Source: Romanomermis culicivorax
Taxonomy: Eukaryota; Nematoda; Enoplea; Mermithida; Mermithidae
NCBI GenBank assembly: GCA_963922205.1
Contig: CAWUHX010000265.1
Coordinates: 186,001-250,000, forward strand
Direction of reading: 5' to 3'
Length of the DNA: 64,000 nucleotides
Below the pieces are notes generated by a model. The model did not search any database and had not been told where the DNA came from. It saw only the letters and a list, made by a program, of their open reading frames with translations. Positions 15,424 through 52,689 of the stretch are shown here, in pieces; positions within the stretch are counted from its first letter, which is position 1; each line of letters starts with the position of its first letter. The translations under genes were made by a program, and so were the position numbers.

Positions 15424-15962
15424 TGTTGTAGTGTGTTTCAGCCGATTTTGTCAATCCACGAATGAGGCCCTCATGTGCCAAGCAGAGTGAGGGACGCAGA
15501 CCATCAACAGTCATCTTACTGTAGCACACGTTGGTACGTGTGTGCTGGCTCTCTCATGGTGTATTATTTTTTTTGTGTTTTGATAACGTGTGCCCCGTTG
15601 GCTATTTTCTCTCCACTCGCCGCCTCTCTGCACACACTCCTTTGTTTGTTTTCCTTCTTAGTGCGTGGGAGTGAACCATTTTCTATTCTCGCCCCCTTTT
15701 GTTTGTAAGTAAGTGTTTTTCAATTACATAAGATAAAATTAGAAAGGTCTCTCCTTTCCAGTTTGTATTTAATTTGGGAGACAATTAAGGAAGCAACTTT
15801 TCCTTGATTGGTGGGAACATTTGTGTCGGGTTTAAGTACAATTAATTAAGTTACACGGATAAGCATGGGCATGGGAAATACCTATATTAAGGACGAACCC
15901 CTGGAATCCCAATCGTGCCTGAACTCAAAGACCAAAGCCCCCACAACTTTTCAAATACAACA
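15424..15962 (+). repeat. 5' LTR, outer element
   Basis: 539 bp from TGTTGTAGTGTGTTTC to CAAATACAACA; matches 41857-42401 throughout, with an insertion-type difference near TTTTGTCA and scattered substitutions, so the element is not recent. CTGGTGACTGTTTGG follows directly as the primer-site candidate. Confidence 0.9.
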
Positions 15963-19497: not shown

Positions 19498-20480
19498 AGC
19501 ACTGTCTTCCCTACAACAACAGAAACTATTCCAGACATGATTGTTCAACTACTATCAACCAATAGCGTAGCCACAGAACTCCCAATCGAAACTGCAATCA
19601 TCAACATCATCAATGGTCACTGCCCACTACTGTTCATCAATAAAACGCCGAATAGCATCAAACTTTGCCCGAACCAACTTATCGCAATGGTAAAACATAC
19701 ACTAGGTCAGGCCGAATCCCCTATCGACTGTCAGGTAGCAACTGCTGCTGCGGACGGCGATTTAACTGACCACAAACCAGCGGCCCTCAATAAATCACTC
19801 CCTTGCCATACCGACCAGCGAAAAAGGGATTTCGCTTTGAACAAGATGACCGAAAAAACTTACATTACTGCTGCACAAAAAACAAAGGCCCACTATATGC
19901 TTTGACAGAACTGGGATGTCATCAGCCTGCCCGGTGACAAACCAACTATCATCAGCGAATTGACCCTCAGCATTGACACCGGCACTGCAAAGCCTGTATC
20001 AAACCATTACTACTGCACTGCAATGGAACAAAGACCAATTGTACGCCCCCATATTCAAGAAATGCTCGACAACGACTTTATCGAACAATCCGACTCGCCC
20101 TGGGCTGCGCCACTGTTCCTGGTAAAAAGGAAAGATGGCTCATGGCGACCCTTCGATTCAAAGTTTTGCCGTTCAGATTGAAGAATGCGGCCACTGAATT
20201 CCGACGCTTAATGGAAAGAATCCTCTGCCCGTACATTCGGAAAATTTGCCTTATCTACATTGATGTTATTATCATTTTCTCGAATTCCTTTAAAGAACAT
20301 TTGGAGCATTTACAAATCATTTTCGACACCTTCCACGCAGCCAATCTTACGCCAATTCCTGCTGCGGCAAATTCCTGCAACCGCAAGTCAAATTCTTGGG
20401 ACACCTTCTTAGCGCCCCTGGGATTGCTGTCGATCCAGAGAAAGTCAAGGCTATCACCGACTACGCCTTCCTGACTACCA
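19498..20480 (+). pseudogene. pol: Reverse transcriptase with internal deletion, outer element
   Basis: The N-terminal RT block [20 protein letters not shown] and VKRKDGSWR (to about 20150) is followed directly by [15 protein letters not shown] (from 20154). About 70 residues that normally lie between, including motif A and its catalytic Asp, are deleted. The catalytic YIDD reads YIDV (about 20255). Together these rule out polymerase activity. Frameshifts occur at about 20150 and 20400. Confidence 0.82.
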
Positions 20481-21065
20481 AAAAAGGTATGCAGTGTTTT
20501 CTAGGTTTAGTTCAATGGTGCAAGCGATTTATCCCGAAATTGGCGACCTTGTCTAGTCCATTGTATGCACTCCTCCGGAGAGATGCTCAATCAATCGCCA
20601 CGGAGGAACACCATGCTGCATTTGAAAGTATCAAGAAAGCCCTCACATCATTGCCCTTTCTCTGTTACCCGGTCTACAACAGTAAAGCTCAATTCGTTAT
20701 CCAAACCGATGCCAGTACAACCCCCATTGGAGCAATTTTGTACCAGGAAAATGGAAACGATCAATGGGTCATCGCCTACAACAGCCGCCTACTCACTGAC
20801 GCCAAAACCGGCTACAGTACAACTGAGCGCGAATGCCTCACCATTGTCTATGGCTTCAGGATGTACTGCCACTATGTTTATGGCCAAAAAGTTATCGTTC
20901 ATACTGACCACAAGCCCTGGAATGGCTCAAAGACGAAAAACACCAAAACTCGCGCCTCCAAGGTTTTGCAATAAACCTCCAAGACTACGATTACAGGGAT
21001 GAATACGTGAAAGGCAAAGACAACGCTTGCCCCGATTTTCTGTCCAGAACAGATGACGGCGACAA
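20396..21065 (+). pseudogene. pol: RT connection and RNase H, outer element
   Basis: Connection block CFLGLVQWCKRFIPK, then RNase H with QTDASTTPIGAILYQ (first Asp), TERECLTIVYG (Glu) and VHTDHKPW (second Asp). A frameshift near 20925 leads to the DNACPDFLSRT segment, the usual end of Gypsy RNase H. It would degrade the RNA strand of the cDNA hybrid. Catalytic positions look retained, but the frame is broken. Confidence 0.82.
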
Positions 21066-21177
21066 ACCACTGATCCCGAATACTTAAAACATAACGGCCA
21101 AAATTTTCTGACAAAATTTTTGCCCTGATGGTGCATCATCAGCCGCTGACTTAACGGTACCCGATATACTCCCAGAA

Positions 21178-22610
21178 GTGGCCTCACCACCCTTGGAAAT
21201 CGATGTGGACGTCAACCCTGCCACTCGAGCAATGACCAAAAAGACCATCAGTCAACCCACACTCTCTGACTCCATACTGTTGGCCCCCGATTTCCGGCCA
21301 CCTCCGGTCGAAGCCAAAACAATTGTCTCCCACGAGGAAGTGAAACAAGCACAAGCCGCTGATCCCGCTGTCACCAAAATCATCGCCACCCTCCAAATGA
21401 AAAACGCCATGAAACATCCACCTGTCTTGTTCAGCGAAGATGGTCTTTTGTATCCGCAGATCAAAGACAACCGCCAGTTAGTTGTTCCTGCATCTATGGT
21501 TGATCAAACACTACACCAATTCCAGGGCGCAAAAATTTTGAATCACTAAGGATCAAGCCGCATGCTCGCAGCCATCAAGGCTCATTTATGGTGGCCTCGC
21601 AAGGAAGAAAACATCCGCAATTGGATCAAGACCCGCAAAATTTGCCAACTGACAAGGCCGCGCATAGCACTGCTTCTGCCGCTGTTGCGGATCCAATCCA
21701 AGCATCCTTTTGAGATTGTTGCCACCAATATTGTCAACATTTCACCGGTAGGTGAAAAACGCAAATACGTTATTGTTTTTCGGGATTACTTTACGAAATG
21801 GGTTTCCCCGGACCCCATACCCCATCAAAAGGCTTCAACAATCATCGAATGCTTCGTGAACAACATCCTCCTCACACACGGTAGCCCCCTTCTTCTTCTT
21901 TCCGATCAAGGTGGATGCTTCACGTCAAAGCTCATGCAGGCTATTTGCGAGCTACTCAAAATACAAAAAGTCAAAACAACAGCGTATCACCCCCAGTGCA
22001 ACCGAATGGTCGAGTGTTTCAATCAAACCTTGATTGCCCAACTGAAGAAGTACACCACCCACGATCCGGACAACTGAGAACGCTACTTGCCATACACCGT
22101 CTTCACCTATAACACAATGCCGCATACAGCTACACGCCACTCGCCCTTCAGCTTATTGTGAGGATACAAACCGCGCATAACCTTTGACTACGACTGCACC
22201 CGCGGACTCACATTGCGGCTCAATTACGACGCGTATCAGCATGCCCTCATGCAAGCGCAACTAAAGATGCATGAGAAGATAAAAGCTAACCTTGATGCAG
22301 CCGCCACAGTCAGTAAAGAATACTTCGATCCCAAAGCCGGAGCACACAAATTCTCCATCAACGATCTTGCCCTCTTGACCAACACGTGAAAGGCGAACAA
22401 AATCCAACCTGATTTCATTGGTCCTTTTAATATCACAGATGCGTCTCCGGCAGCCGAAAACGTCATCACAATTGATTCACTTGCTGCACCCCGCCTGCTG
22501 CAAACTGTTTCCAAGACGCAATTGAAACCATTCATACCGCGCCCGGCCAAAGACGTTTTTGCTCTCGAAACTGGCAGACCATGTTTGCCTCACACTTCAC
22601 GCCACCAATA
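21178..22610 (+). pseudogene. pol: Integrase, outer element
   Basis: The zinc-binding region is damaged (IKTRKICQ, one Cys of the CxxC lost; stop at 21547). In the DDE core the first Asp appears as Asn (VATNIVNIS), the second is intact (LLSDQGGCF) and the Glu is present (RMVECFNQ). Three TGA stops (22076, about 22160, 22387) interrupt the C-terminal half, which ends near 22610 with a basic tail. The inner-element integrase (32478-34001) aligns throughout. It is inactive. Confidence 0.85.
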
Positions 22611-28715: not shown

Positions 28716-29312
28716 TGTCAGGGATGGACATAGTCTATCTCCAAGTTGCGAAGAAATCACCAAAGTCGACGCAAAACGCGTCGACACTGATTTGCATAGA
28801 CACTATGCATAAAAGTGCCAGTCGTCTATGTTTTTGGTCATTCTCTGATTGTTTGTTTGTTTTATAATAAAAGAAAGTCGACGGGCCAGTAGGCCATATT
28901 GTTATATAATATTTTATTATATTTTTGTGGAGATTTTCCCGGAAATACAACGTCCCTCCCCTGGACATTTATTGGACGACTCCCAGCGGAGGGAACACAG
29001 GTTAGACCCTGGATCTCTAGAGTGCCAGCCAGCGCGCAAGTCTACATTTACAACTCAATTCTGGGCCTGACTTCTAGGGTTGCCCAGGATTTGAAGTTAC
29101 TTGAGCTCAGAGAGTTAATTAATCTTCTGCAGTTCTTAGGAATGAAAGCAGGAGATCTTTGTTGATTTTGAGACTGACTGAACTGTTGCAAACTGATTCT
29201 ACCTAAGGTTTCGGCCTGATTAGGTGAATTAGTGAGTGACTGATTAGGTCTATTTTTGATACCAATTCATTTATTTATATTTCTCAAGCTCGACACAAGT
29301 CTCATCTCATCA
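28716..29312 (+). repeat. 5' LTR, inner element
   Basis: 597 bp, starting TGTCAGGGATGGACATAG and ending CTCATCTCATCA. It has CATAAAAG (TATA-like, near 28808) and AATAAAA (near 28866). It differs from the 3' LTR at scattered sites (for example accaaagtcgac versus gccaaagtggac), so the insertion is not very young. Confidence 0.92.
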
Positions 29313-31322: not shown

Positions 31323-31330
31323 GATATAGC

Positions 31331-31760
31331 AGATGATGAACTGCCTTGAGAGAGCAAAATTTTATACGACTCTTGACCTTAAGTCTGGTTATTGGCAAGT
31401 GCCAATGGAAGAAGGCAATAAAGAAAAGACTGCTTTCCTGTGTCAAGAAGGGTTGTTCCAGTTCAAAGTAATGCCCTTTGGACTGAAAAATGCACCAGCC
31501 GAGTTCCAGAGGATGATGGAAAGAATCCGTCATTTCCATGTTTGGAAGATATGTCTAGTTTACATAGATGATATCATAGTGTTCTCAAATATGTTCGAGG
31601 AACACATAGAAAATTTGAAATTGGTCCTGGATGCTCTGAGACGAGCCCAGCCTACACTTAAACCGGAAAAATATGAATTCCTAATAAAAAACAAGGTACA
31701 TTTTCTTGGTCACATCTTGGATTCTAATGGAATTTCCCGGATCTGAAAAAAGCGCAAGCT
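31331..31760 (+). pseudogene. pol: Reverse transcriptase, N-terminally truncated, inner element
   Basis: Motif A region LERAKFYTTLDLKSGYWQ with catalytic Asp, then FKVMPFGLKNAPAEFQRMME and a fully intact LVYIDDIIVFS active site, then HFLGHILDSNGIS. The fingers domain (KKDGSWR block) and protease are missing, because gag sequence adjoins at the MITE site. A one-base deletion near 31740 shifts the frame into the connection domain. Palm residues are intact but the protein is incomplete. Confidence 0.85.
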
Positions 31761-32477
31761 ATAAAGCAGTTTGAATTCCCAGACTCGGTCAAGCGTTTGC
31801 AAAGGTTTCTCGGAATGCTCCAGTGCTGTAAAAAATTTATACCACATCTGGCAAAGCACGCAGAACCTTTGTATAAGCTGACGGCCAAGAAAAGGAATAA
31901 ATGGCTCGTCACAGAGGATCATTAGGAAGCATTTAATGCTTTGAAAGAAGCACTGGTATCGGTTCCATTTCTTAGGTACCCAGTAATGCATGGCTCAGCC
32001 CAATTCATTCTGCAAACTGATGCCAGTGGAACAGCACTAGGGGCTGTTCTGTATCAAGAGTCTGGAGATGACAAGTGGGTCATAGCATATAATAGCTGTG
32101 TGCTAAAAGAGGATGAGAAAAAGTGGTGCGCAACTGAAAGGGAGTCCCTCCTGATTATCTACGGCCTCAAAATCTATTGGCACTATTTATTGGGGCAGAA
32201 AGTATTGGTTAAGACAGATCACAGACCACTGTTATCAATGAAAGTCAATACTACAACAAATGACAAATTGAAACAGTGGTATGCAATCATAAATCAATAC
32301 AACCACAAGTCAGAATAGGTCCCCGATAGACAAAATGCTATGGCTGACTTTCTCTTCAGAACAGATGAGCCAGAGGATGTGGTGAAATCACCACCTAAGT
32401 GGGAAAGCATGTTCAAATCGGATGTTGTTTCCTCTCATGTAAAAGGAATAAATTAACAAGAACAACAACAAATTTCC
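31741..32477 (+). pseudogene. pol: RT connection and RNase H, inner element
   Basis: Connection: RLQRFLGMLQCCKKFIPHLA. RNase H: LQTDASGTALGAVLYQ (Asp), TERESLLIIYG (Glu), VKTDHRPLLSM (Asp), then AMADFLFRT, the usual C-terminal Asp-containing end. Stops at 31923 (TAG), 32317 (TAG) and 32455 (TAA) interrupt one reading frame. Catalytic residues are all present. Confidence 0.85.
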
Positions 32478-34001
32478 TTGGTGGACGAGAGGAACAACAT
32501 CTACAAGGAGAATAAATCCAACAAGGATAGAAAGGAAGGAGAGGATGCTCGAATTAGTCCTCAGGATGAAAGAGAGCATTCTAAAGGAGTAGAATTGGTG
32601 GAAACCCGAAGCAAAGCTAGTGTTTCGGAAAAGGTGCAGAAAGAAAATCAGGAAACTGATAAATCCGCGATACCTAAGGAACAAGACAATGTGCAGTGGT
32701 TATACCCTAGAAAGGAGGAGGCATTTGATAAACTGGGAACATCAGGAGAAAAAGAGATATCTATTGGCCTGATCCCAGATGACTTGATGAGGAAACTGCA
32801 AAAAGCAGACAAAAGCTTAAAGCCAATCTGGGACAGATTAGGTGCAAATAGCACAACGAAGTATCACACTGGGTTCTACGAAGAAAATGGTGTATTGTAT
32901 AGGGAAACTGAGGCAGAAAGTGAAGACCAATTGGTTGTACCCACAAACTTCAGGGACTCTGTACTGCATCAGCATCATGGTGCTGTAATAATGACACACC
33001 AGGGTTTCAAAAGAACTATCAGTGTCATGAAAAGGCATTATTGGTGGCCTGGCATGGAAAAAGATGTCAGGGAATGGATAAAATACTGCGTTGTCTGTCA
33101 AATAGCAACTGCAGGAAAGCCATCCATTCCTCCGTTGATACCCATTGTGCCACAAGGTCCATTCAACATTGTATCCTTGGATATAGTAGGAATTTCGCCT
33201 TTGGGAGAAAGCATCCCCTATGTTATAGTTTTTCAGGACTATTTCACAAAATGGGTTGAAGCTGAAATGATCCCAGATCAATCAGCAAACTCAGTTGTGA
33301 ATGCGTTCTTAGAAGCTATAATATTTAGGCATGGAACACCAACAAAACTCCTAAGTGACAATGGATCTTGTTTTACTTCGGATTTAATGAAATCAGTTTG
33401 CGACTTATTAGAGTCTAAGAAGATCTTCACTACTGCTTACCACCCTCAGGGTAATGGTATGGTAGAGAGGTTCAACCCAACTCTAATAAAACAGCTGAGA
33501 AAAGTAGCTATTGGAGAACCCGATAGCTGGCCAAGATATCTCAAATCAGTGGTCTTTGCCTATAATGCTACCCCACATGCAGTGACAAAGGCATCACCAT
33601 TTATGTTGTTACAGGTCCATGAGGCAAAGTTTGGGATGAATCTCTCAAAAGCCCTCAAAATAGTAATGCCCATGAATTATGAGGCATATAAATTTATCCT
33701 AACCGACCACTTAACCAGGCTTTATGGTATTATTGCCGAAAATATCCAGAAAGCAGTGGAAGCTAGCAAAAAATATTTTGACAAGAAAATTAAAACCTCG
33801 GTTTTTAAAGAAAATGATTGGATACTTCTTAAAGTTGATAAGCACAAGAAATTAGGCTTAACTTGGGAAGGACCCTTCATTATAACTGATGTTTCCAGGT
33901 TAGAAGATGATGTCATAACAATTGCACGTTATGATAATCTTTTGCTACGGCAAAAGGTTTCAGCAAGTAGGCTAAAAATTTTTCACTACGAGACTACATG
34001 A
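32478..34001 (+). CDS. pol: Integrase of the inner element (open)
   Basis: 507 codons open from 32478. A charged N-terminal linker (to about residue 110) is followed by the HHCC zinc-binding region (MTHQGFKRTISVMKRHYWW ... CVVCQ). The DDE core reads VSLDIVGISPLGE, LLSDNGSCFTS and GNGMVERFN; the three acidic residues are present. The C-terminal part contains PFMLLQVHEAKFG and a basic end without a recognisable chromodomain. This is the best-preserved enzyme region in the nested pair. In the intact element it would be cut from a Gag-Pol precursor and insert cDNA with short duplications (here 4 bp). Confidence 0.9.
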   Translation: MVDERNNIYKENKSNKDRKEGEDARISPQDEREHSKGVELVETRSKASVSEKVQKENQETDKSAIPKEQDNVQWLYPRKEEAFDKLGTSGEKEISIGLIPDDLMRKLQKADKSLKPIWDRLGANSTTKYHTGFYEENGVLYRETEAESEDQLVVPTNFRDSVLHQHHGAVIMTHQGFKRTISVMKRHYWWPGMEKDVREWIKYCVVCQIATAGKPSIPPLIPIVPQGPFNIVSLDIVGISPLGESIPYVIVFQDYFTKWVEAEMIPDQSANSVVNAFLEAIIFRHGTPTKLLSDNGSCFTSDLMKSVCDLLESKKIFTTAYHPQGNGMVERFNPTLIKQLRKVAIGEPDSWPRYLKSVVFAYNATPHAVTKASPFMLLQVHEAKFGMNLSKALKIVMPMNYEAYKFILTDHLTRLYGIIAENIQKAVEASKKYFDKKIKTSVFKENDWILLKVDKHKKLGLTWEGPFIITDVSRLEDDVITIARYDNLLLRQKVSASRLKIFHYETT

Positions 34002-34518
34002 TGGCAGAACTACATGAAAAATCGATGGTACAGTCTTACTGTACCTTCCCAATCAGGGGAGAGTAGAGCGACGCCTGATGTAGTTTTGTAGCGGCAAAAT
34101 CTGCCGATTTGCATGTATTTATTTTACATATTTAATAAATATTTATTCTAATTGTGTTTTGTAACGGTTAAAATCCGTTTTAATATTTTTTGACGTATAG
34201 GATTGTGTTTTAACGAAGCGGAGGAAAAGCTTCTAAAGGGAGAGACCCGTTTTCATAAATTTTTTCATTTTACACTTTCTTGGTTAACAACTCCAAATCA
34301 TTCAAAACTTTCAAAAGTCCTGTCCCACGTCTGCTAACATTTTTCAAATCTTTTTCTAAAAATATTTTGAATGGATGAATCCTCCTGTCAGGCAATTTGC
34401 AGCTGCAAGGGAATAGACTGTAAATGTTTTATACATCTGTCTACTTTTTACAGCTGCAAATTCGGTTTTAAAAAATTTTAATATATTTTGGTGCAAGGAA
34501 AACAGGCCCAACATTTCA
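34002..34518 (+). other. Post-pol spacer, inner element
   Basis: AT-rich non-coding region (several ttttaaaat runs) between integrase and the ORF3 leader. Short minus-strand readings here look like chance. Confidence 0.4.
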
Positions 34519-34626: not shown

Positions 34627-35367
34627 TAAGCAACCATTTTTTATCCTTGTAAATAGTTAGGTAAGATAATGAGCGAAGGTTACGCTCATCAGGGGAGTTT
34701 TGCAAGACTATTTCTGTGCCCTTTCTTGGACGAGCTACCAACTGGGAGTTGAGAAATAAACACAAAAAATTAGGTAAAAGGGGGTGGCAAGGGCCGAACC
34801 TAGGTGATCCGGAAAAGACTTTGGTCGAATTAGGTGATCTGATTAGGGGAGGTTTTTGTCATTCCCGCTCCCTCTGGTTTCCGCAAAGCGGCTGAGAAGG
34901 GGATTAGCAAAAATTAGTTGTGGAAATCAGGATTGTGATCGATTAGCGCTGATCGAGTAGCAAGAGTGTGTTGGGTTGGAGTGAAAAAAAAACACACCTA
35001 ATTTCACATATTTTTGCCTATAAATTTTGGTTTCTATAAAGGGACACCCAACAGCCAGAAAGGCTAAATATCAAGTTCCCGCTCCCAAAATTTCATAAGT
35101 TCAAAAGTTCAACGGTGTTCTGCACACAGGTGCTAGAGTTTCCCCAAAGGTAAAAAGTATTAGTGGGTAAAATTACCCAAAGAGTTGGGAAAAAAGGGTC
35201 ACGTAAATGCACATAAAGGAGTAGTAGAGTATATCTGAACTTAAATCTCTCCCCAATTTTTAGACCATAACATCCATCAGGCAATGCGGATAGCTGAGTT
35301 AGAAAGGTGGTTTTTTGCCAGTTTTGAGTTCTGACCGACCAACCCAATCGAGCGGATAACTGTTCCC
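34627..35367 (+). other. Candidate ORF3 leader intron or UTR
   Basis: Non-coding, with several stops in all frames and a pyrimidine-AG site (ctccccaatttttag) at 35260. Nothing else recognised. Confidence 0.3.
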
Positions 35368-36372
35368 ATGGGAAGTGTGGAAAGAGTGGTAAAACACCTT
35401 GAAAGCAGCACTTTCCGAGGCATGAACATTGTCGGCTTCGATGTAGAGAAGGTGAACCGCGAGGACGCTAAAAAACTATTTAGGTGGGGGGTCGATAACG
35501 AAAAAGGCAACCAGTTTGCCAGATTAGTTTTGTTCGCCCACCTAAATGGTAAAATGTTCGTAATTGACTTGATGTTGCTGCAAGAGCAAGAGTGGAACAT
35601 TTTGTTACACTTTTTTCGCTCAGCAATGTTGTTAGTCGGTTACGCCATTTTGGAGGACATAGTTTCAATTATTAATGTCTGAGGATGCGGAAAAAGCACC
35701 GATGGTCGCAATTTGTCTGACGCGATTAGATGTAGTATCAAGGATGGAAATCTTGGAAGATACTATGATCTAAGCGTCACCGCAAAGCAGATTATGGGAA
35801 GCGAGATTACCAAATCCAGGAAAGCAGGAATCTGCCCTGAGACATTGAAATTGAAAGGCCTTTTTGCCGAAATGTATCTGGCTAATATCGGTCCTCACCA
35901 GACTGATTTCAGTCTTTTACGTAATAGGCAAAATGTGGCCAAAGAAAGAGTCCCCGAAGAGATACTGCAGTACGCTGGTATGGATGGGTACTTTTCTTTG
36001 GCAATTTTTATGGGGGCATTTCACTATGGGTACGTGATTGAGCTATGTGGGGGAGTTGCTAATTTTCCTCACGATATAGTCGATCCGGCTCAGATTGAAA
36101 TTCTCTCATATAAATTTTATCAGTTTTACTCATATATAGTGACGGACTATAAACTACGTAACTTTGTGGGTACACCTGATATTGTGGTTAGGCAGCCTGA
36201 GGCCACCTACCACATGATGCGCCAAGAAATGTATGCAAGATGGGCCACGCAAGTGCAAGAAATAGGGCCTAAATTTCATTGCCACCGGGATATTTGCAAT
36301 CCTAGGAAAGGGAAAGAAATTTGCCATGGCGGGGCATCTACCCAGGTGCTTATTGTCAAGGTAAAAAATTAA
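35368..36372 (+). pseudogene. DEDDy 3'-5' exonuclease-like domain, start of ORF3, inner element
   Basis: 334 codons in one frame with a single internal TGA at 35680. Motif I is IVGFDVEKV (Asp25-x-Glu27). Motif II is LLVGYAILEDIVSI (Asp97), the VGxxIxxD form seen in WRN-like exonucleases. Motif III is QYAGMDGYFSLAIF (Tyr-x3-Asp; about 202 and 206), the DEDDy arrangement. DEDDy enzymes remove nucleotides from RNA or DNA 3' ends with two metal ions bound by these acidic residues. The segment after motif III ends in a Cys/His cluster (HCHRDICNPRKGKEICH) that might bind zinc. It lies downstream of integrase, in the ORF3/env position. The ATG at 35368 is chosen because a stop lies 33 nt upstream in frame. 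A role in trimming cDNA or RNA ends is inference. Confidence 0.72.
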
Positions 36373-37607
36373 AGCCCAATTCCTATGATGAAGCAAGTGA
36401 CCCCGATGACAACGAGGCCTGAACAGCGCTTGTCAGCCAAGGATAAATTGGGCTTGGAGTTGGTGGAGGAGATGGCGCAAGGAAAGCAGTATCATGAGCT
36501 TATGCAGCCAGCGTCCTTAGTGTGGTTCATAGACACAGCGAGAAAGGTTGTCAAATTACCCCAGGATCGTCAAAAGCAAGCACTACTGGATGCCCTAAAA
36601 AACCATCTGGTTCATGTGCCTATTGACATTGATCCTGGAGTGGGGTATTTTGACAAAGATCACTGGAAGCCTCAGCTGGCGGAGTATGCTAAGGCATTTG
36701 AGGAAAAGCGGTTCTCAGAACTGCAAGCCGCTTGTGCCTTAGTCCCGTGGCCTTCCACATGATCTGGCCCCATAGCAGAAAGGAACTGGAATTTGTAATG
36801 GCCGAAATGTTTAGTTACAGGTTCATTACATCGTTCAGCCCAGAGTTACAGGATAAGATAAAGGAAATGGCTCGGCGGTCAGATGAAAGGTTATCCCAGT
36901 ATCTTTTGTTGGCGAAAACTCTTCCAAGCATAGAGTATGAGGTACCCCGAAAAGGTGCTGGAATAGTTGTTTGGATGAATCAATTCGGATTTATGCCGAT
37001 TCAGTTAAGGTTATGGAAGGACGTGGATGTGTGTGCGCTGATCCCTGGTAGTCCTGACACAATAACTAGGGACAGTAAGAGCTATAGCTCAAATCCGTAT
37101 TATTATGTTAGGTTCTACCATATCGAGCTAGCACAAAGGACGCCTTTATTAAGATATGGGGTAACCTGACAAACCAAAATTGACAAGGTTGGAGATGTCT
37201 ATGGGTCATTGGCTGAAAATAGGGAGTATAGTACAGCCTTCCCTAAAAAGATCTTTGACCATGGACCTTTGGCCTCAGATTTACCGGGAATTCAGCACAC
37301 ATTTAGTTATAAAAGGGGTGAAGGTGTTGTCACCAAACTAGCTGGCAAGATTAGTCCCCACCAAGCTGGAGTAGGTGTAGTTGAATTTCCGATACTTTCA
37401 GGTCAGGAAGTCCAAACGTCGGAAAGTGAAATCTTCAGCGATGCAGTTGGACTGCTGGCTGAGGGTGAATCACAAGACAAAGGGCTAGATGAGGACGTGA
37501 CTGAACTGTCGGAAGAAGAGCAGCAGGAAGAGCAATCGGTTCCGGCAACGGAACTGATGCAAGCTCAAACTGCTCAGAAGCAGTCCGAACTCAGCAACCA
37601 ACATTGA
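36373..37607 (+). pseudogene. ORF3 middle region, inner element
   Basis: Continues the exonuclease reading after a TAA (36370) in the same frame to about 36745, then shifts frame once and goes on, with TGA at 37167 and 37605. The first part is helical and charged (KDKLGLELVEEMAQGKQYHE; QALLDALKNHLVHVPIDID). The second has Tyr-rich beta-like sequence (SNPYYYVRFYHIELAQ), and it ends acidic and Gln/Glu-rich ([17 protein letters not shown]). No known domain recognised. If the interruptions are late mutations, ORF3 was about 1310 codons long. Confidence 0.55.
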
Positions 37608-39311
37608 TTGGAGGAAATTTTAAAGATGGAAGAGGAGGGGAAGGAAAAGATTCAACTCCAACATGAGCAAATGGAGGAAGAATTGAGGAAAAGTATGGTG
37701 ATTTACAATGAAAAAGTTCGTCAAATGTCAATCCAATTCGGACTCCAAAAAGACGATACCGCAGGGCCCGAGATGGAAGCAAAAGTAGTTGTATTAGAGC
37801 CACCATCGCCGATGAAGGTAGACAACAATATGGCCTCCGACAAGCTTGTTATTGATGAAATGATAGTGGAAACGCCCGAATCGGAGATGAGGGAGAGCAA
37901 GGAGGTAATAGCGTTTTCTGCTGATGGGGGTGTTCCAGGTTTATATTCAGCCAAAGTCGTTCAGAGTATGAGAGAAAAGGGTTGGAACGATGAAAGAATA
38001 CTGTTTATGGCTGAAAGAAAGAAGAAAATGAGATTGAAGGAGAAGGAAAAGAGGAAGAAGGGTGGCAAGGGATCAAAAGTAGAACAGAAAGAGGAAGACA
38101 GTAAGACGGGGACTTCGTCCGTCATATCGACTTCAACTTCTACAATTACCTCCACTGCTACCCCCACATCCCAAATTACTTCCACTTCAAATGGAACACC
38201 GTCATTGGCTACATCTTCAGTGGCAACTGCAACTCAAGATAGTATATCTAAGACTAGTCAAACTTCAGGCCCAATAGGCCTTGCCATGGCGAAACCGACA
38301 CCGAAAGGTCAGGCAGAACCCAGCAAGGACCAAAAACCAGGAGTGGCAGCTAGTCAGGTGCAAGGGGCTGGTCCTAGCAAAATTAAGCGGGCACAGGCTG
38401 CTCAGGCAACTGAAATGCTGGAAGTGACTGCAGAAAAATTCAAGGACAGTCTTTTGGACTTCTGGGATGTCTATCAACCAAAAACCAGAGAATCTGGACC
38501 CATATCATTTTTTATGAGTGCAGTGGCCAAATATTTTGCTTTCGAGCAATTCGAGTCAGAAAGGGTTTTCTTCATGGTAAATGATGCTGTTAGAGAAATC
38601 TACTGGGATTATGAACAACAGTTCAGAGTCCAGGGAGCGTTTCTCTATGATCGGACCAATTTACCAGAAGAACTCTGGGAAAGAGTCATTTATGACTTTC
38701 TCCCCAGGTGGCTCAAAGGAGAGAGAGCACCTGATGTGTTTTCCTTGGTAAGGTATCTGGTTATGATGCTATTCCTTGTGTTGGAATGCACCCTGCTATC
38801 CCCGATGCATATTGGCAACATTTATGCCAGGGCGATGGTGGCGGTGAATAACCGACTGTTGAGGGTGTATAATAGCCGGGATACCCCCTTGGAATTCAAA
38901 ACGGCGTTTCGATCAGTGATGCTCAGTAGCAATCACCAGGTCGGAGTGATGGGAGCCAAAAGAAGTGCCAGTTCAGACTTGCAAAGCTCTGTTAAGTTCA
39001 GTGAAGCTCAAGACGGAAAAACTGGTGCAACTTTGAAGGTTCCCGGACCTCAAGGTCAAGGTCAAAGCAAAGGAAGCCAGGAATTAGCCCCGATTACGCA
39101 AGGAAAGGTGCAAAAAACTGGTAACCACGGCTGAGGCCAATTTCAGTTCCACAACCCCAACCAGGGTGGTCATGGAGCAGTGCATGGCAGAGGTCCTGCG
39201 CCCCAGGTGCAAGGTAGAGGTGGCCAGCAGGGCCAGTGGGTATGGAGGCCTTACCGATGTTGTGGAGGAGTGCACAGAGGGGCGCAAGGAGGCGGCCAGC
39301 CGCAACAGTAA
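37608..39311 (+). pseudogene. ORF3 C-terminal region: coiled coil, Ser/Thr linker, helical domain, RG-rich tail
   Basis: The same frame as the preceding part, separated by one TGA. Order: a Glu/Lys-rich coiled coil (37610-37750), a Lys-rich basic block ([18 protein letters not shown], near 38020), a Ser/Thr-only linker ([15 protein letters not shown], 38130-38240), a Gln/Ala linker, and a folded helical domain (38400-38940: [35 protein letters not shown]). A TGA at 39132 is followed in frame by a Gly/Gln/Arg-rich tail with RGG-like repeats (HGRGPAPQVQGRGGQQGQW) to TAA 39309. The helical domain aligns loosely with [19 protein letters not shown] of the outer element. Helical domain plus basic tail recalls a Gag capsid plus nucleocapsid; this is inference. 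Confidence 0.55.
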
Positions 39312-39902: not shown

Positions 39903-40128
39903 ATAGCGCACCCGGACAGCCTTGTGAACATTCCGGTATGCCTGGTAAAAAGACTTGACGTAAGAGGGTGGTCATTCGGAAAGCTTTCCGCAAGGGGGCA
40001 TGAATGACCAAAAAGGTTCAGAAAACTGCTTTGACTGTATTAGGTCCTGAAAAGGTTCCGAAATTGTCGTGGTGGCATATTATGAATCTTTTTCACCTCC
40101 CCTTGGTCAGTTTCGAGGCTCGAGGAAT

Positions 40129-40723
40129 GTCGGGGATGGACATAGTCTATCTACAGGTTGGGAAGAAATAGCCAAAGTGGACGCAAAACGCGTCGACGCC
40201 GATTTGCATAGACACCGTGCATAAAAGTACTGGTCGTCTATGTTTTTGGTCATTCTCTGATTGTTTGTTTATTTTATAATAAAAAAAAATCGGTGGGCCA
40301 GTAGGCCATATTATTATATAATATTTTATTATATTTTTGTGGAGATTTTCCCCAAAATACAACGTCCCTCGCCTGGACATTTATTGGACGACTCGCAGCG
40401 GAGGGAACGCAGGTTAGACCCCGGATCTCTGAAGTGCCACCCAGCGTGCAAGTCTACATTTACAACTCAATTCTCTGCCTGACTTCTAGGGTTGCCCCAG
40501 ATTTGAAGTTACTTGAGCTCAGAGAGTTATGAAATCTTCTGCAGTTCCTAGGAATGAAAGCAGGAGATTTTTGTTGATTTTGAGACTGACGGAACTGTTG
40601 CAAACTTATTCTACCTAAGGTTTCGGCCTGATTAGGTGAATTAGTGAGTGACTGATTAGGTCTATTTTTGATACCAATTCATTTATTATATTTCTCAACT
40701 TCCACCAAAGTCTCATTTCAACA
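40129..40723 (+). repeat. 3' LTR, inner element
   Basis: 595 bp, TGTCGGGGATGGACATAG to CTCATTTCAACA, matching 28716-29312. A modest purine-rich GAGGCTCGAGGAA precedes it. CCAT target duplication follows at 40724. Confidence 0.92.
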
Positions 40724-41856: not shown

Positions 41857-42401
41857 TGTTGTAGTGTGTTTCCGCTGATTTTGTCATATTTTGTCAATCC
41901 CCGAATGAGGCCTGCAAGTGCCAAGCGGAGTGTGCGACGCGGACCATCAACAGTCGTCCTACTGTAGCACACGTCGGTACGCGTGCGCTGACTCATGGTG
42001 TATTATTCTTTTTGTGTTTTGATAATGTGTGCCCCGTTGGCTATTTTCTCTCTACTTGCCACCTCCCCGCACGCACTCCTTTGTTTGTTTTCCTTCTTAG
42101 TGCATGAGAGTGAACCATTTTCTACTTTCGCCCCGTTTCGTTTGTAAGCAAGTGTTTTTCCATTACGTAAGACAAAATTAGAAAGGTCTCTCCTTTCCGG
42201 TTTGTATTTAATTTGGGAGACAATTAAGGTAGCAACTTTTCCTTGATTGGTGGGAACATTTGTGTCGGGTTTAAGTACAAGTAATTAAGTTAAACGGATA
42301 AGCGTGGGCGTGGGAAATACGTACATTAAGGATGAACCCCTGGGATCCCAATCGTGCCTGAACTCAAAGACCAAAGCCCGGACAACTTTTCAAATACAAC
42401 A
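41857..42401 (+). repeat. 3' LTR, outer element
   Basis: 545 bp, TGTTGTAGTGTGTTTCC to CAAATACAACA, matching the 5' LTR at 15424-15962 with multiple substitutions and a small indel. Confidence 0.9.
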
Positions 42402-51726: not shown

Positions 51727-52371
51727 TGTTGAGGCAACCTGTTCCCGCCACTCGGGGCTTCAGTAAAAGTTAGGCTCGGTCTGGGACTTGAACCCAGGAC
51801 CTTGCGGCTACCGTCCGCACGCTCTAACCAACTGAGCCAACCGAGCAGCGGGAAAGGCGCTCTCTTTTTGCAACAATTCGTAGTTGAGGTGGCTGCTTTG
51901 GCCACTCTCAACATCCCTCCGCCGTCGAGTTTGACGGACCGTCAAGGGCCACCAGTGTTGAGGCAACCTCTTCCCGCCACTCGGGGCTTCAGTAAAAGTT
52001 AGGCTCGGTCTGAGAATTGAACTCAGGACCTTGCGGCTACCGTCCGCACGCTCTAACCAACTGAGCTACCCGAGTAGCGGGAACGGCGCTCTCTTTTTGC
52101 AACAATTCGTAGTTGAGGTGGCTGCTTTGGCCACTCTCAACATCCCTCCGCCGTCGAGTTTGACGGACCGTCAAGGGCCACCAGTGTTGAGGCAACCTGT
52201 TCCCGCCACTCGGGGCTTCAGTAAAAGTTAGGCTCGGTCTGGGACTTGAACCCAGGACCTTGCGGCTACCGTCCGCACGCTCTAACCAACTGAGCCAACC
52301 GAGCAGCGGGAAAGGCGCTCTCTTTTTGCAACAATTCGTAGTTGAGGTGGCTGCTTTGCCACTCTCAACAG
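51727..52371 (-). repeat. Three tandem 229-bp units with a tRNA-like head (SINE-like)
   Basis: Units start at 51727, 51956 and 52185, exactly 229 bp apart; the third is truncated. On the minus strand each has a 73-nt cloverleaf (51774-51846, 52003-52075, 52232-52304). In copies 1 and 3 the acceptor stem GCTCGGT/ACCGAGC pairs fully. The D stem, anticodon stem TGCGG/CCGCA and T arm GGGTTCAAGTCCC (B box) are also intact. The anticodon loop ACGGTAG has C instead of U at position 33. A conserved tRNA-unrelated part (gttgcaaaaagagagcgcc side) follows, as in tRNA-derived SINEs. Confidence 0.8.
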
Positions 52372-52689
52372 GAAAATAAATCTTTCTAGCTTTCATTTCC
52401 CAGACAGAAGGTTTGATTTCTCAGTGAATTTAATTAATTTTCAGACGGACAAAATAAAATTCAAAAACCAGTCAAACGACTAAGAATTAGGATCTTTCAA
52501 CCGGCAAGCTAAACCGATTCAGATATCAAATTTTCAGCCAGAAAAATGGCAAATCAACACTATTCAATGTTTCCGGCATTAACTCACACAATTCCAATTT
52601 TTTATCGTATCAATTTCTGGACGCCATGAACCAATATGTCGAAAATGATCAGTTGGCTGAATTGAGGGTCAGTCCCTATAATTAATCTA

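Follow-up and report, generated by a model that had tools for sequence, protein, structure and literature searches.

A Conserved ORF3 With a Likely DEDDy-Type Exonuclease Domain in a Ty3-Type Retrotransposon of the Nematode Romanomermis culicivorax

Here, we conclude that a stretch of DNA from the nematode Romanomermis culicivorax, a mermithid that parasitizes mosquito larvae and that we take to be the host, is a degenerate copy of the sequence for the N-terminal domain of open reading frame 3 (ORF3) of a high-copy Ty3-type long terminal repeat (LTR) retrotransposon, and that ORF3 is under purifying selection from its first Met onward. The stretch lies at positions 35368–36372 of the window, that is, of the 64,000 nucleotides analyzed (contig CAWUHX010000265.1 of assembly GCA_963922205.1, positions 186,001 to 250,000 of the forward strand), and the retrotransposon is called the inner element below, as another LTR element encloses it. 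The first ~300 residues of ORF3 very probably form a DEDDy (DnaQ/PF01612-like) domain, and this domain is probably active as a 3'-5' exonuclease. A sequence-only reading of the window had proposed an exonuclease-encoding ORF3 at this place. Statements on papers cited by PMC number refer to parts of those papers.

Results

ORF3 in Open Copies Across the Genome

The genome (359,112,060 bases in 595 contigs) was searched with the window piece that follows the TGA at 35680. Among 2761 candidates, 150 genomic matches were scored, all 150 of which match the query, and by hand count a 1398-codon open frame holds 33 of these 150 rows. Most of the 36 loci that we fetched from the 150 were chosen for their long frames, and some were diverged or broken; the sample is thus biased towards intact copies. 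In locus L010, ORF3 encodes a protein of 1357 amino acids, counted from a Met that aligned with window position 35284. The full gene is larger than the window piece, and the domain forms the N-terminus of this long protein; it is not a stand-alone ORF. The sequence-only reading was right about an ORF with DEDDy-type motifs behind the integrase, motifs that proved to be kept by selection, and had to be amended as to the extent of the protein.

ORF3 lies between the integrase and the 3' LTR in the open copies. Of the 16 loci that span 9.9 kb, 15 have this LTR behind ORF3; the other 20, at 5.5 kb each, were too short to reveal it. The order pol, ORF3, LTR agrees with the claimed position downstream of the integrase in a retrotransposon, and it is the position of the DEDDy ORF3 of rotifer type. 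Behind the exonuclease-like part, ORF3 continues with a conserved middle region, then a Glu/Lys-rich stretch and a Ser/Thr-rich linker with a net charge of −16, and finally a conserved block followed by a tail. Within the final 108 residues, this tail carries a net charge of +15 and ten RGG/RGR/GRG triplets. This C-terminal composition, including the RGG-type tail, would suit an RNA-bound protein. The tail also argues against an envelope-like protein, which the site after the integrase, the usual place of env, could suggest; a scan of two open frames gave no env-like or viral glycoprotein Pfam match at an expectation value (E) ≤ 1, and we regard an envelope-like ORF3 as very improbable.

A public R. 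culicivorax protein, P0006 (A0A915K0E6_ROMCU), is named myosin heavy chain and holds ORF3 and pol segments of the inner element. Its gene model, in which a pol segment is joined to an ORF3-like start, is probably chimeric.

Purifying Selection on ORF3

Selection was measured as the ratio of nonsynonymous to synonymous polymorphism (pN/pS) over 27 open copies, with 95% bootstrap intervals and with codons numbered in the 1398-codon frame, where the Met is codon 42. This set and the 26-copy set used below omit 9 and 10 of the 36 loci, respectively, which have no frame of >900 codons with the search key. Before the Met, pN/pS was 0.982 (0.577–1.878; codons 1–41), and it fell to 0.094 in codons 42–69 and 0.095 (0.054–0.164) in the exonuclease-like region, codons 70–345. 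The remainder of the protein gave 0.115 (codons 346–760), 0.207 (761–1080) and 0.108 (1081–1250), and a separate count over 26 copies agreed with these values. The shift at the Met acts as a control within the data and shows where ORF3 starts. In the same seven loci, pN/pS was 0.133 (0.076–0.221) for pol and 0.087 (0.045–0.157) for codons 42–345; for pol it was 0.335 in 13 loci that include older copies.

Motif Residues of the Domain

The motifs FDVE, LLVGYAILEDI and YAGMD, with the four acidic residues and the Tyr, were all located where the sequence-only reading had put them: D25 at 35440, E27 at 35446, D97 at 35656, Y202 at 35971 and D206 at 35983. The third motif reads QYAGMDGY in the window and QYAGMDAY in the open copies. 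All 26 open copies of the second set share FDVE, LEDI and QYAGMDAY without change, and 24 of them have VGYA; the DEDDy order of D-x-E, D and Y-x3-D, with conserved spacing, is found in the window and in every copy of this set. Outside it, motif I is altered in L019 and L022 and motif III in L023. Taken together, the 150 scored genomic matches, a pN/pS of ~0.1 and the motif identity in 26 of 26 copies place the ORF3 domain beyond chance.

Likely Assignment of the Domain to the DEDDy Exonucleases

The Pfam family PF01612 (DNA_pol_A_exo1), which includes RNase D, WRN and their kin, shares with ORF3 the motif layout D-x-E, D, Y-x3-D, and a weak profile match was obtained. PF01612 was found in nine of ten natural copies at E ≤ 10. 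When eight natural copies were scanned singly over the domain, it was the top Pfam match in seven (E 0.00044 to 0.024), and in two complete open frames it was the sole Pfam match at E ≤ 1 (E 0.047 and 0.048). These matches are not independent tests, as the natural copies are near-identical. Domains with a clear PF01612 match exist in the same genome (L136, E 1.3e-11; L137, E 2.5e-14), and in a blastp comparison against two sequences, ORF3 aligned collinearly with L136 over residues 78–246 (E 0.002; 48 gap positions) and with L137 over motif III only (E 0.005). Comparison by hhalign of an ORF3 alignment with an alignment of the in-genome relative gave E 0.008 at a probability of 5%, over a block reaching up to motif II and with no control for this pair. 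With two home-made DEDDy profiles, L010 and L014 outscored all 2001 shuffled or reversed versions, as well as 145 other ORFs, a number that includes the window ORF3 pieces.

Several results weigh against this assignment. No copy reached the PF01612 cut-off of 23.6 bits, the best having 20.5 bits, and motif I lies outside the profile matches. The affinity that the sequence-only reading had expected a Pfam profile to detect was seen in natural copies, below the cut-off, and not in the window pieces, which matched no Pfam family at E ≤ 1; the 229-residue window piece scored 1.3 bits with a home-made profile. In L022, PF01612 came second (E 0.15) to RSN1_TM (E 0.016), and with the first home-made profile one of the 2001 shuffles outscored this copy. 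Neither RNase D nor any PDB sequence was matched significantly by ORF3: hhalign against RNase D gave E 0.088, whereas a control, the C-terminal part of ORF3, did better (0.049), and PDB sequence searches, one with a natural copy and one with a profile, retrieved no DEDD chain at E ≤ 1. AlphaFold2 models of the two window pieces, predicted separately, were weak, with predicted local distance difference test (pLDDT) scores of 62.6 and 40.9. The model of the first piece runs helix–strand–helix and then has three strands and one long helix, inside which the expected fourth DEDDy strand is drawn.

Other searches were also negative. The window pieces had no DEDD match in the PDB, no DEDD chain was among the best 50 rows each of Foldseek and VIA-align for the model of the first piece, a natural copy matched no DEDD family at E ≤ 1 in NCBIfam and PHROGs, and searches of viral_contigs and phages returned no relative of ORF3.

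The sub-threshold PF01612 matches and the uninformative folds favor another reading, in which ORF3 would be a conserved accessory protein with a structural, RNA-binding or RNA-export function, comparable to CERV of the Caenorhabditis elegans LTR retrotransposon Cer1, and its DEDDy part would be a dead or RNA-binding derivative or a chance likeness. CERV is a large novel protein that a nematode LTR element produces by way of a spliced mRNA (PMC10309623), and the Maelstrom domain of animals, which lacks the catalytic residues, binds RNA (PMC4408791). Nevertheless, all catalytic positions are kept in the 26 open copies, which a dead enzyme would not need, and it is the decayed copies (L019, L022 and L023) that vary at the motifs; we consider this reading unlikely. 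The DEDDy assignment, which draws on the motif order, the weak in-register profile matches, the in-genome relative and the selection, is likely and not proven.

The Inner Element in the Window

All features of the inner element are on the forward strand. Its 5' LTR (28716–29309) and 3' LTR (40128–40720) are 91.9% identical over 594 columns. Between them lie a partial reverse transcriptase (31330–31743; PF00078, RVT_1, E 3.6e-28, covering 64–205 of the 205 profile positions) and an integrase frame with an H2C2 zinc domain and a core (32457–34001; PF17921, E 1.2e-18; PF00665, E 2.3e-12). The pol of L009 matched the window at 31737–34085 with 89.7% identity, and a Pfam scan of the L009 open frame gave RNase H and then integrase. 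The pol order of reverse transcriptase, RNase H and H2C2 plus core integrase, together with the LTR pair, is that of a Ty3-type LTR retrotransposon.

The N-terminal part of ORF3 with its DEDDy-like domain occupies 35284–36369. Within 35368–36372, a single TGA (35680) precedes the closing stop at 36370, just as the sequence-only reading had it; the gene as a whole is in a worse state, with a further stop in this first frame at 35332 and a later change of frame. The remaining ORF3 (middle region, Glu/Lys-rich stretch, Ser/Thr-rich linker and conserved block; 36373–39278) is broken and its frames change. A natural ORF3 accordingly matched the window by tblastn in two overlapping parts in different frames, 35284–36759 (86.4%) and 36732–39278 (84.1%), with the frame change near 36732–36759.

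The outer LTR element that encloses the inner one has 300-base repeats at 15548–15847 and 41987–42286 (92% identical). Its pol (20369–22533) is 38–51% identical to that of the inner element, and the ORF3 of the inner element had no match in it at E ≤ 1e-3. Elsewhere in the window, a 229-base unit occurs in three head-to-tail copies at 51727–52413, which are 79–100% identical to the first.

Other DEDDy Families in the Same Genome

PF01612 had 91 matches in the genome at E ≤ 0.01 (119 candidates), all flagged as exceeding the cut-off, which two of them do only when taken with their neighbors. A genome search with L136 gave 146 matches in identity bands from 100% down to 27%, several of them in frames of 500–667 amino acids. 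The PF01612 matches and these bands indicate several multi-copy DEDDy families in the genome. Loci L136, L137 and L138 represent further multi-copy DEDDy ORF families whose PF01612 matches are clear, with frames of up to ~667 amino acids. We also observed a tandem array, in which DEDDy fragments at C158:182059, 187837 and 193615 are spaced by exactly 5778 bases.

In a map of integrases in the genome, 150 were scored of 5797 candidates. By eye, one of the 150, the integrase at C150:375716, is followed on its own strand after 1.6 kb by a DEDDy match (C150:377496, from the ~31% band), when about 0.05–0.14 such pairs would be expected by chance according to our own arithmetic. As to which elements may carry the other DEDDy families, this integrase-adjacent copy is no more than suggestive.

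Discussion

Expression and Possible Role of ORF3

A run of T followed by AG stands ~20 nucleotides before the ORF3 Met in the window, where the pre-Met stretch (35240–35283, forward strand) holds a possible 3' splice site, and in 31 of 31 aligned loci, namely those of the 36 fetched loci with a clean start. The diversity at this site is not clearly below that of its surroundings, so a 3' splice site is a possibility and not a result. We propose a model in which ORF3 would be made from a spliced mRNA, its long C-terminal part with the RGG-type tail would bind RNA, and the protein would work within the RNA-protein particle of the element, where trimming of the 3' ends of element RNA or cDNA is the favored role. 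The sequence-only reading had suggested that the domain could trim cDNA or tRNA-primer ends or counter silencing, roles that are likewise conjectural. As a whole, this chain from conserved DEDDy ORF3 and spliced mRNA to RNA-binding tail and 3'-end trimming in the particle is tentative, and we place it slightly short of an even chance.

The main alternative to a role in 3'-end processing may be the destruction of silencing RNAs, in which the same DEDDy protein would counter host RNA silencing by degrading, or competing for, small RNAs or their precursors. Small silencing RNAs are a main transposon defense of nematodes (PMC4323106; PMC8837657), and an arms race would fit the strong selection on ORF3 as well as a core role does. 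Nonetheless, pN/pS is low throughout the domain, whereas arms-race genes are often fast-evolving, and the authors of the rotifer study discussed below find a silencing role hard to square with the survival of a self-limiting element (PMC5408684). Such a role therefore appears quite unlikely to us, and 3'-end trimming is retained as the favored one.

Comparison With Known Systems

The LTR elements Vesta and Juno of bdelloid rotifers and the Athena-type Penelope-like elements carry a DEDDy ORF3 (PMC5408684), a precedent that the sequence-only reading had named correctly. As in the nematode element, an ORF that follows pol in the rotifer LTR elements encodes a DEDDy-type domain, and the rotifer genomes likewise contain several families with it (PMC5408684). 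They differ in their host, and the nematode domain opens a protein of 1357 amino acids. In addition, DEDD is changed to DEED in the rotifer ORF3, whereas D, E, D and D are kept in the nematode one, and the rotifer ORF3 shows no significant departure from neutrality (PMC5408684), in contrast to the strong purifying selection reported here. Protein searches for relatives of ORF3 returned only R. culicivorax proteins and one nameless protein, and no rotifer protein.

Cer1 CERV is alike in being an extra protein of a nematode element that is made from a spliced mRNA and acts on element RNA (PMC10309623). It differs in its length of 517 amino acids and in that the word exonuclease has 0 occurrences in the covered part of its description (PMC10309623), and the splicing of the nematode ORF3 is itself only proposed. 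The Maelstrom domain likewise belongs to a DEDD-type fold family tied to transposon control; the animal Maelstrom is without the catalytic residues that are kept in ORF3 (PMC4408791). Cys and His near the end of the ORF3 domain might conceivably form a zinc site like that of Maelstrom. Ustyantsev et al. (2017) are cited for a DnaQ-like domain in LTR elements (PMC6338049), and the word exonuclease is counted with 0 occurrences in that paper (PMC5348765).

In the open-licence PMC literature, judged by titles and the openings of abstracts, we found no paper that describes a nematode element with a DEDDy ORF3. The DEDDy ORF3 of rotifer LTR elements was already known; what is new is the nematode host (R. 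culicivorax, which bears out the nematode-like occurrence noted in the sequence-only reading), the fusion of the domain to a long protein that ends in an RGG-type tail, and the clear purifying selection. On a wider and rather unlikely view, the mobile elements of a mermithid might draw on a common, radiating pool of DEDDy exonuclease genes, like the rotifer retroelements, and one LTR family might have fused such a domain into a 1357-residue RNA-binding protein needed for its spread, perhaps destroying host silencing RNAs.

The rotifer paper leaves open whether the DEDDy ORF3 benefits its element, and it lists mut-7 among the cellular homologs and ties it to silencing (PMC5408684). In R. culicivorax, one family with many copies in one long-read assembly has an ORF3, with its exonuclease-like domain, that is selected about as strongly as pol. 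RNA silencing in nematodes itself employs a DEDDy-type enzyme, MUT-7. The role of an exonuclease for a retrotransposon can therefore now be tested directly in nematodes, a group with well-studied RNA silencing.
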